Source: an uncultured Alphaproteobacteria bacterium
Lineage (GTDB): Bacteria > Pseudomonadota > Alphaproteobacteria > HIMB59 > GCA-002718135
Length of the DNA stretch: 64,000 bases
Assembly: GCA_902597795.1 (NCBI GenBank)
Contig: CACJZA010000003.1
Coordinates: 1-64,000 of the forward strand
Reading direction: 5' to 3'
Under the pieces are notes generated by a model, which saw only the letters and a program-made list of their open reading frames with translations, made no database searches and had not been told where the DNA came from. The position numbers and the translations under genes were made by a program. Below, one piece after another: positions 42,723 through 44,499 of this stretch (positions within the stretch are counted from its first letter, which is position 1; the number at the start of each line of letters is the position of its first letter).

Positions 42723-43472
42723 ATGGCAGGGCACTCGAAATTTAAAAATATTATGCATCGTAAAGGTGCTCAAGATAAAAAAAGAGCAAAAGTTTTCTCA
42801 AGACTTGGAAGAGAAATTTCTGTTGCTGTCAAAGTAGGAGGTGAAGATATTGAGAGTAATATTAGATTAAGATCTGCAATTTCGTCGGCCAAGTCACTCA
42901 ATATGCCAAAAGATAATATTGAGAGAGCAATAAAAAAAGGTCAAGGAAATGATCCCGATAGTAATTATGAAGAAGTAAGATATGAAGGATATGGCCCAGA
43001 AGGTATTGCAATAATAGTTGAGGCACTTACAAATAATAAAAATAGAACAGCTGCTGAAATTAGGTCCTCTTTTAGTAAATATGGAGGTAATTTGGGTGAA
43101 ACAGGAAGTGTTAGTTTTGGTTTTGATAGATTTGGAAATATCACTCTTGATAAAAACTTAGTAAAAGAAGATCAACTCTTAGAATTTCTTATTGAAAATA
43201 ATAGTGAAGATTATGAAATTAATGAAACAGAATATTCAATATACTGTGATCAAAACCATTTGCATGAACTTAATGATAAATTAATTAAACAGTATGGTCA
43301 GACTAACTCTGCAAATTTAATTTGGAAAAGTAAAAATAATATAAATATTGGAAAAGATACAGCAGACAAATTATTTAAATTACTTGAAGTTTTAGAAGAC
43401 AACGACGACGTACAAGTTGTATCATCAAATTTTGAAATTGATGATAATGTTTTATCTTCACTGACAGCCTAA
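42723..43472 (+). CDS. yebC: YebC/PmpR/TACO1 family regulatory protein
   Basis: The 249-residue protein starts MAGHSKFKNIMHRKGAQDKKRAKVF in family fashion (here MAGHSKFKNI, then KGAQDKKRAKVF). It has SLNMPKDNIERAIKKG, YEGYGPEGIAIIVEALTNNKNRT, SFSKYGGNLGETGSVSF and the C-terminal DDVQVVSSNFEI. YebC proteins have been treated as DNA-binding regulators and more recently as ribosome-associated factors that help translate proline stretches. In many alphaproteobacteria ruvC follows; here a small putative nuclease gene does (14-base gap). Confidence 0.96.
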   Translation: MAGHSKFKNIMHRKGAQDKKRAKVFSRLGREISVAVKVGGEDIESNIRLRSAISSAKSLNMPKDNIERAIKKGQGNDPDSNYEEVRYEGYGPEGIAIIVEALTNNKNRTAAEIRSSFSKYGGNLGETGSVSFGFDRFGNITLDKNLVKEDQLLEFLIENNSEDYEINETEYSIYCDQNHLHELNDKLIKQYGQTNSANLIWKSKNNINIGKDTADKLFKLLEVLEDNDDVQVVSSNFEIDDNVLSSLTA

Positions 43473-43486
43473 TGAAAGGAATATAG

Positions 43487-43780
43487 ATGCCTGATAAAGC
43501 CTGGAAAAAAAGAGAAAGAGATGTTGCAAATTATTTTAATGGGAAAAGGACACCTTTGAGCGGGGGTAATGGTAAAGTAACAAGAGCTGATGTAATTCAT
43601 GAAGACTTATTTATAGAATGTAAATTAAGAGCAAAGCATACAGCAATTAGTTTATGGGATGATACTGCAAAGCTTGCCAAAGAGGAGGGTAAGACACCAG
43701 TAATAGCTTTATGTGAAAAAAATAGACCAGGGTTTTGGGTTATGGTTCATAGTAGCGATCTTGAAAAAATTAAAAAATAA
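43487..43780 (+). CDS. Putative PD-(D/E)XK nuclease, Hjc resolvase-like
   Basis: The 97-residue soluble protein has a nuclease-like core: an N-terminal helix with Glu10 (KKRERDVANYF), the R21-T-P-L-S25-G26 loop, T-R-A-D35, and the F-I-E44-C-K46 strand. This E, S-G, D, E-x-K spacing is that of archaeal Hjc-type Holliday junction resolvases and related phage nucleases. A helix (about 55-67), the strand PVIALCEK (71-78) and GFWVMVHSSDL complete a small alpha/beta fold. It sits exactly between yebC and tolQ, where ruvC-ruvA-ruvB often lie. A Shine-Dalgarno-like AAAGGAA precedes the ATG. Resolvase function is inference; a generic PD-(D/E)XK endonuclease is the fallback. Confidence 0.7.
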   Translation: MPDKAWKKRERDVANYFNGKRTPLSGGNGKVTRADVIHEDLFIECKLRAKHTAISLWDDTAKLAKEEGKTPVIALCEKNRPGFWVMVHSSDLEKIKK

Positions 43781-43785
43781 TTACT

Positions 43786-44499
43786 ATGGCAGATATAAAT
43801 AGTGCAAATTTATCGACAGAAGCTCCAGATTTTTCAATGCTTGCTTTATTTATGCAAGCTGACCTTGTTGTAAAATCAGTAATTATAATTTTAATTTTAG
43901 CCTCTTTATATTCTTGGAATGTAATTATTTCAAAAATTTTAAGAATCAGACAATTAAAAAAACTTGAAAAAGAATTTGAAGATATTTTTTGGTCTGGAAA
44001 TTCATTTGAAGATTTATATGAAACTTTAAATTTCAATCAGACAGACCCAAAGTCAAAGTTATTTTGTGCTGCAATATTAGAGTGGAAAAAAAGTAAATCT
44101 CAATATGAAAATGATACTTCAGATATAAATTCTTTAAAGGATAGAATGATGAGATCAATGACAGTTGTTTTTAATAAAGAAAGTGAAAATGTTGAGAGAA
44201 ATTTAACATTTCTTGCAACTGCCGGATCAACTGCACCTTTTATAGGATTATTTGGAACAGTTTGGGGAATAATGAATAGCTTTAAATCTATTGCAATAGC
44301 TCAAAATACAAATTTAGCAGTAGTTGCACCAGGTATCGCAGAGGCTCTATTTGCAACAGCTCTAGGTCTTTTTGTAGCTATACCAGCCGTAGTTGCGTAT
44401 AACAAAATTTCTAACGATTTATCAAAATACTTTATATCTTTGGAAACATTCATGGATGAGTTCTCAACAATTTTTTTTAGACAGTTAGAGAAAAAATAA
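43786..44499 (+). CDS. tolQ: Tol-Pal system proton channel protein TolQ
   Basis: The 237-residue inner-membrane protein has three helices in MotA/TolQ/ExbB style: one near 28-46, then a cytosolic loop, then the pair with LATAGSTAPFIGLFGTVWGIMNSF (about 145-168) and APGIAEALFATALGLFVAIPAVVAYN (about 184-209). TolQ pentamers with TolR use proton motive force to energise TolA, which keeps the outer membrane closed during division. It starts 5 bases after the small nuclease gene and runs straight into tolR. Confidence 0.97.
   Translation: MADINSANLSTEAPDFSMLALFMQADLVVKSVIIILILASLYSWNVIISKILRIRQLKKLEKEFEDIFWSGNSFEDLYETLNFNQTDPKSKLFCAAILEWKKSKSQYENDTSDINSLKDRMMRSMTVVFNKESENVERNLTFLATAGSTAPFIGLFGTVWGIMNSFKSIAIAQNTNLAVVAPGIAEALFATALGLFVAIPAVVAYNKISNDLSKYFISLETFMDEFSTIFFRQLEKK

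Follow-up and report, generated by a model that had tools for sequence, protein, structure and literature searches.

A phage-type Hjc-like nuclease as the proposed Holliday junction resolvase in the ruvC slot of RuvABC-less HIMB59 Alphaproteobacteria

The resolvase RecU has a fold of the PD-(D/E)XK type. In the available part of PMC1193525, RecU is described as replacing RuvC in the Firmicutes and Mollicutes, with RuvAB co-occurring with either RuvC or RecU and with recU lying beside ruvAB in only two genomes; the same text counts RuvAB and RuvC/RecU among the nearly ubiquitous bacterial recombination genes. Outside the bacteria, a resolvase of the archaeal Hjc kind is encoded by the Thermus phage Tth15-6 (Hjc_15-6; PDB 7bgs and 7bnx), with catalytic residues Glu10, Asp40, Glu53 and Lys55, and this enzyme cuts X-shaped DNA and spares blunt linear DNA (PMC8805305, available part). 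Holliday junction resolvases are also mentioned for some marine phages, e.g. the CRP-810 type (excerpt of PMC11288001), and RusA for an OM43 phage (excerpt of PMC8024684). For HIMB59 itself, one genomic island has been suggested to be exchanged by homologous recombination (PMC10734472, available part); ruv gene names and the word “resolvase” are absent from the main text of the HIMB59 papers PMC10308909, PMC3815206, and PMC10734472, and we found no account of a resolvase swap for RuvABC in HIMB59 in the open-licence literature. The enzyme type is thus known from archaea and phages, and so are bacteria in which RecU stands in for RuvC and RuvAB is kept. The case proposed here is new in that bacteria lacking RuvABC appear to have fixed a phage-type Hjc-like resolvase at the ruvC position: like RecU, it would be a RuvC substitute, but with RecU the RuvAB proteins are kept, whereas here they are lost and the gene occupies the place of ruvC.

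The window analysed is a stretch of 64 000 nucleotides from an uncultured alphaproteobacterium of the order HIMB59, whose source genome measures 1.19 Mb and is 70.7% complete. On the forward strand it carries a 97-residue open reading frame (43487..43780, +), the proposed resolvase gene, with an ATG 14 bases past yebC (42723..43472, +), the gene on its upstream side by which the ruvC slot is recognised, and a TAA stop 5 bases short of tolQ (43786..44499, +), which is followed by tolR, tolA, tolB, and pal. An earlier note, made from the DNA alone, had described this frame as a small Hjc-like PD-(D/E)XK nuclease between yebC and tolQ, and the coordinates, length, neighbours and residues that it gave all agree with the sequence and its translation. 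The residues are the motif I glutamate E10 in the N-terminal helix (codon 43514..43516, +), R21-T-P-L-S25 (43547..43561, +) and then G26 in the loop joining helix 1 to the sheet, D35 of motif II (43589..43591, +), and E44-C45-K46, the E-x-K of motif III (43616..43624, +).

The frame is a genuine gene under strong purifying selection. Of 61 genomes, comprising the source genome of the window and 60 relatives, 52 have it, among them every one of the 10 with a completeness of 90% or more; the nine genomes without it are all <90% complete. Mean pN/pS is 0.067 across 3003 pairs drawn from 78 distinct DNA versions of the gene, and dN/dS is ∼0.04 for the 1947 pairs with 0.1<pS<0.6; a chance or spurious open reading frame is ruled out by this conservation and dN/dS. 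Among named genome contigs, 98 stretches encode a relative, of which we kept the best 80, all at least 90% identical and mostly “AG-” and “AH-” records of uncultured Alphaproteobacteria. In these best 80 of 98, yebC lies directly upstream in 80 and tolQ directly downstream in 79, and queries with RuvA, RuvB, and RuvC matched at none of the 80 loci. A prophage remnant is unlikely given such housekeeping neighbours. In one isolate record, AG-457-I08, the nuclease and an orotate phosphoribosyltransferase (pyrE; NCBIfam E 1.3e-78) form a single in-frame fusion at L095:2118-3023 (+), with tolQ not found downstream; the genome may truly be rearranged here, or the assembly may have joined two pieces.

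Conservation extends to the putative active site. In 28 aligned sequences, with identity down to 41%, E10, R21, S25, G26, D35, E44, and K46 are all invariant, so that none of the four presumed catalytic positions (E10, D35, E44, and K46) whose loss in orthologues would have told against the nuclease reading has been lost. Further invariant positions in the same alignment are W6, K7, R11, A14, F17, L24, T32, H38, and L41, among others.

By sequence, the window protein matches the PHROGs v4 family phrog_2002, “Holliday junction resolvase”, over nearly its full length (E 2.5e-10; residues 3-94 on profile positions 16-112 of 130), as do all 28 aligned members, 11 of which also match phrog_244 weakly. 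PHROGs is a phage library, whereas here the gene is chromosomal and fixed at the position of ruvC. In the HMM search against Hjc families that had been suggested earlier, Pfam Hjc (PF01870) gave no match to the window protein at E 10, and because the Pfam gathering cut-off is not reached we do not file the protein under PF01870. Only one of the 28 aligned members matched Pfam Hjc, at E 0.13. The protein is covered by none of the NCBIfam models and by no Pfam model over its cut-off; the Pfam scan returned no RuvC (PF02075) match, RecU was listed in neither the Pfam nor the NCBIfam scan, and PDB sequence searches with the protein or its family gave no match, archaeal Hjc and Hjc_15-6 included. 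A defence gene was considered and rejected, PADLOC defence families having matched none of the three nuclease members tested.

Hjc-type enzymes are defined by three motifs, namely a motif I glutamate, hDhhXp, and hhh(E/D/Q)hK (PMC8805305, available part). The window protein conforms to the second with A-D35-V-I-H-E and to the third with L-F-I-E44-C-K46, and the G/P and G(F/Y) flanks of motif I in Hjc are not kept. An hhalign comparison with five Hjc sequences gave E 2.5e-4, a value for a single comparison, with a probability of just 43%, and paired E10, R11, R21, D35, E44, and K46 of the window protein with E9, R10, R25, D33, E46, and K48 of Pyrococcus furiosus Hjc. Of these, E9, D33, E46, and K48 are what we take to be the catalytic residues of the archaeal enzyme, and the Hjc-like layout of Glu, Asp, and Glu-x-Lys given in the earlier note is kept in register as well as in order.

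The AlphaFold model is a small alpha/beta protein (pLDDT 81, pTM 0.75) with a helix at 2-16, a strand at 41-47, a helix at 53-66, strands at 70-76 and 84-86, and a helix at 89-96; the loop residues 26-30 have pLDDT <50. With this model, the first 15 rows of a Foldseek search of the PDB are all archaeal Hjc (best E 7.7e-3, probability 0.99). For a second member, a phage homologue 57% identical to the window protein, Foldseek again ranks Hjc first, and for neither protein is there a PDB match at E 0.001 or better. VIA-align places 1gef first for the window model (Z 7.6, rmsd 3.6, 86 residues aligned) and aligns the second member to it with Z 8.0, rmsd 3.4, and 88 residues, a Z range of 7.6-8.0 being one that the tool calls middling. 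Other nuclease-like chains, from arenavirus and bunyavirus endonucleases and SSO0001, all presumably PD-(D/E)XK-like, reach VIA Z 5-6.8. Among predicted viral structures there are 13 matches at E <= 0.001, mostly to unnamed phage proteins, with one named Holliday junction resolvase. Structure prediction, proposed in the earlier note as the way to compare the protein with Hjc, has accordingly returned a PD-(D/E)XK-like fold for which Hjc is the best solved match in two members, and not an unlike fold. The predicted membership of the PD-(D/E)XK fold class is firm; closeness to Hjc is likely rather than proven, because the Z scores are middling and other nucleases stand at 5-6.8.

Set against the described enzymes, the window protein thus has its best predicted-fold match in archaeal Hjc/Hje (PF01870; 1gef, 2wcw, and 1ob8), with which it shares the order E, R, D, E-x-K, the archaeal PDB chains measuring 123-147 aa as compared to 97 aa. 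The phage-encoded, archaeal-like Hjc_15-6 has the same motif layout, and a modelled homologue of the window protein superposes on its chain 7bgs_A with Z 5.8 and rmsd 2.6 over 75 residues; it comes from a thermophile and reads E-SD-EVK, versus E-AD-ECK in the window protein.

An intact ruvC-ruvAB elsewhere in the genome would have weakened the case for replacement, and we see none. The RuvC profile (PF02075) matched 0 of the 61 genomes and 8 of 14 control genomes. RuvB was judged by its specific C-terminal domain, RuvB_N being less specific: RuvB_C and RuvA_N were both absent from all 16 HIMB59-order genomes searched and from four genomes of a family outside the order (f25), and present in four of four RuvC-bearing controls. 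The negative set includes G037, which is 99% complete and consists of a single 1.41 Mb contig. RuvB_N (PF05496) did match all 61 genomes, 55 of them above the 27-bit cut-off and none beyond ∼35 bits, the open frames concerned being ∼420, 540-600, and ∼800 aa long; from these frame lengths we read the matches as ClpX-, DnaX-, and Lon-type AAA ATPases and not as RuvB. Absence of RuvAB along with RuvC goes beyond the earlier note, as does the finding that, outside the order, the nearest relatives are proteins of apparently marine phages. RecG, on the other hand, matched at full length in 21 of 24 genomes tested, 11 of 12 among the window's family (GCA-002718135, here f1), a second family (f2, presumably family HIMB59) of the same order, for which AEGEAN-169 is another name, and f25; only 6 of the 24 passed its curated cut-off, and full-length matches were missing in G040, G271, and G360.

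Across 337 genomes of the class, RuvC is found in 308 and the nuclease family in eight (two of f1, two of f2, and four of f25), with no genome holding both. The corresponding Fisher value, 1e-9, ignores kinship, and just two or three independent lineages lie behind it. The gene sits between yebC and tolQ in 12 of 12 f2 loci and 4 of 4 f25 loci, so that a survey of yebC-tolQ neighbourhoods places it in the slot in all three families; wide co-occurrence with ruvC is not seen (0/337). The premise that ruvC usually follows yebC in Alphaproteobacteria is upheld by 16 of 20 RuvC-bearing loci, counting gaps up to ∼1 kb, these loci having been hand-picked for high RuvC scores and roomy contigs and not drawn at random; tolQ was recognised within ∼1.3 kb downstream of ruvB in 8 of the 20, some of which end too soon.

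The 29 RuvC-less genomes comprise eight with this nuclease, four with a MOC1-like protein, two with a PDDEXK_15 protein, six that are RuvB_C-positive, perhaps reflecting assembly gaps, and nine with none of these. Nine of the 29 were picked by gaps in numbering; all nine were included in the RuvA_N and RuvB_C searches and five in the yebC search. The MOC1-like proteins, of 164-166 residues, directly follow yebC in three genomes of family f99 and one of f119, all without RuvABC (L318:5931-6425 (-), L319:5908-6399 (-), L320:2570-3061 (+), and L328:5808-6305 (-)). These phage-type relatives of RuvC match phrog_1770, “Holliday junction resolvase”, at E 5e-37 to 8e-22 and escape the Pfam model for RuvC, and the one tested against the PDB matched chloroplast MOC1 (E 2e-14). 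Since four of the eight genomes among the 337 that match the MOC1-like model carry RuvC (G253, G273, G305, and G370), it is the slot position, not the family itself, that accompanies the loss of RuvC here. Two genomes of family f50 have a 168-residue PDDEXK_15/phrog_244 protein immediately behind yebC (L325:5940-6443 (-) and L326:1745-2248 (+)), with no RuvABC hits and with genes that by eye resemble tilS, ftsH, and glmM following in place of tolQ. A third f50 genome, G328, gave neither a PDDEXK_15 nor a yebC hit, and PDDEXK_15 was found in 3 of the 337 genomes, one of which, G159, falls below the cut-off and bears RuvC. None of the six genomes with a MOC1-like or PDDEXK_15 protein in the slot has RuvA_N or RuvB_C.

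Both of these protein families share with the window gene the slot, the absence of RuvABC, and a phage-type resolvase annotation, and their profile similarity to the window family is undetectable (MOC1-like) or remote and insignificant (PDDEXK_15). Loss of RuvABC need not force such a replacement, because 9 of the 29 RuvC-less genomes have no RuvA_N, no RuvB_C, and none of the three replacement families, yebC being unfound in four of the nine. Two genomes of family f108, G271 and G360, gave no RuvABC hit and no visible replacement after yebC; at L321:2644-4800 in that family, ∼2 kb without a long open reading frame separate yebC from a ybgC-like gene, in the expected place of ruvCAB.

Close homologues occur in IMG/VR viral contigs: one scan gave 78 loci, and a second gave 198 confirmed stretches, 80 of them retained. 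The neighbours and the diversity of these contigs suggest that they are marine. The phage loci total 133, including several contigs fetched twice, and 20 of them end too soon. In 105 of the remaining 113 the terminase large subunit directly follows the gene (84 with a gap >0 and 21 with zero or few-base overlap; the other eight are arranged otherwise), and yebC is near the gene in 0 of the 133. Isolated phages yielded only two distant gut-phage records (41-48% identity), and a plasmid origin was rejected on finding no match among 72 556 plasmid records. In Bacteroides phage BS162P1 (L127:4323-5312 (+)), a Hjc-like domain is fused behind NUMOD4/HNH homing-endonuclease domains, in a protein annotated only as an I-HmuI-like DNA endonuclease.

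The f1 nuclease is 67-77% identical to that of f2 and up to ∼85% identical to phage copies, which range from 49% to 100% among themselves. In a tree of 44 of 101 distinct sequences (pieces <85 aa or with a stop were dropped), rooted on the two distant gut-phage sequences and with many weak nodes, the phage copies surround three separate bacterial groups: f1 falls with two phage types (SH 0.92), and f2 and f25 lie elsewhere among the phage copies. A four-gene tree of 33 of 47 loci, the other 14 having at most two of the four genes, joins f25 to f119 (support 87) and not to f1 and f2; its grouping of f99 with f1 and f2 may result from base composition, an artefact like that described for SAR11 and AEGEAN-169 in the available part of PMC10308909. 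A single origin for the HIMB59 and f25 genes is disfavoured, as both trees separate f25 from f1 and f2, each weakly because the protein has 97 residues and the genomes are AT-rich. The nuclease tree mildly favours phages as the source of the bacterial gene, perhaps with more than one entry. Transfer from host to phage, in which a vertically inherited bacterial gene was picked up by phages, would also accommodate the close grouping of f1 copies with two phage types, a pattern that fits either direction, yet we think it rather unlikely: the phage set is the more diverse and surrounds the bacterial groups, and the family is confined to 8 of the 337 class genomes.

We consider it probable (roughly 0.8) that a phage-derived Hjc-like resolvase took over the ruvC slot and does the job of RuvC without RuvAB. 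This was one of the two possibilities raised in the earlier note, a non-homologous resolvase at the ruvC site, and the sharing of the slot by two other resolvase families in RuvABC-less Alphaproteobacteria lends it support. The product would belong to the archaeal-Hjc/phage type of PD-(D/E)XK endonucleases and would be small, dependent on Mg2+ and probably a dimer. Its gene would have passed from a tailed-phage lineage to the chromosome in the place of ruvC-ruvA-ruvB between yebC and tolQ. RecA would form joint molecules, and four-way junctions would be left by this recombination and by stalled forks; the retained RecG would be the likely partner for branch migration, moving the branch point. 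The Hjc-like dimer would then bind the four-way junction, with the R21/S25 loop contacting the strands, and E10, D35, E44, and K46 would hold Mg2+ for two opposed nicks that ligase could seal. We infer this junction-cleavage chemistry by analogy with Hjc and the Thermus phage enzyme.

Two other readings of the function deserve weighing. T7 endonuclease I and T4 endonuclease VII act in debranching and packaging of branched DNA, and the window protein could be a phage-derived nuclease of that kind, able to cut many branched structures, whose bacterial role is fork or flap clean-up and not Holliday junction resolution. The terminase large subunit does come straight after the gene in 105 of 113 phage loci, a packaging context, and viral resolvases are described as typically more promiscuous than bacterial ones (PMC3864405, available part). 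Broad specificity is nonetheless compatible with being the resolvase, and the bacterial copy occupies the ruvC slot and, among the 337 class genomes, is found only in those without RuvC; we therefore judge the clean-up role improbable. We give appreciably less credence still to a PD-(D/E)XK nuclease of other function (anti-phage, restriction, or repair) that is in the slot by coincidence, with HIMB59 either lacking a dedicated resolvase or using YqgF or RecG. Such a state is conceivable in that nine RuvC-less genomes show neither RuvABC nor any of the three replacements, and YqgF is a proposed stand-in where RuvC and RecU are absent (PMC1193525, available part). It fits poorly with the lack of a PADLOC match for three members, with Hjc twice coming first among solved folds, and with the slot being held by this family in two lineages and by different resolvase families in others. 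Defence genes, moreover, are expected to change fast, unlike this gene with its strong purifying selection.

Returning to the phage-derived resolvase as the favoured reading, we lean slightly toward a broader proposal, in which the site after yebC is a repeated replacement site in streamlined, RuvABC-less Alphaproteobacteria, filled by at least three phage-type, RuvAB-independent resolvase families (Hjc-like, MOC1-like, and PDDEXK_15), possibly with renewed exchange between the bacteria and phages of their own. If true, much of the alphaproteobacterial plankton of the surface ocean recombines via virus-derived resolvases and RecG, not RuvABC. The HIMB59 case would account for a gene to which annotation assigns nothing, and it is a small system in which to ask directly if chromosomal recombination can run on a phage-type resolvase by itself. 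An abundant ocean bacterial group appears to have swapped its standard junction machinery, which suggests that this machinery is replaceable.
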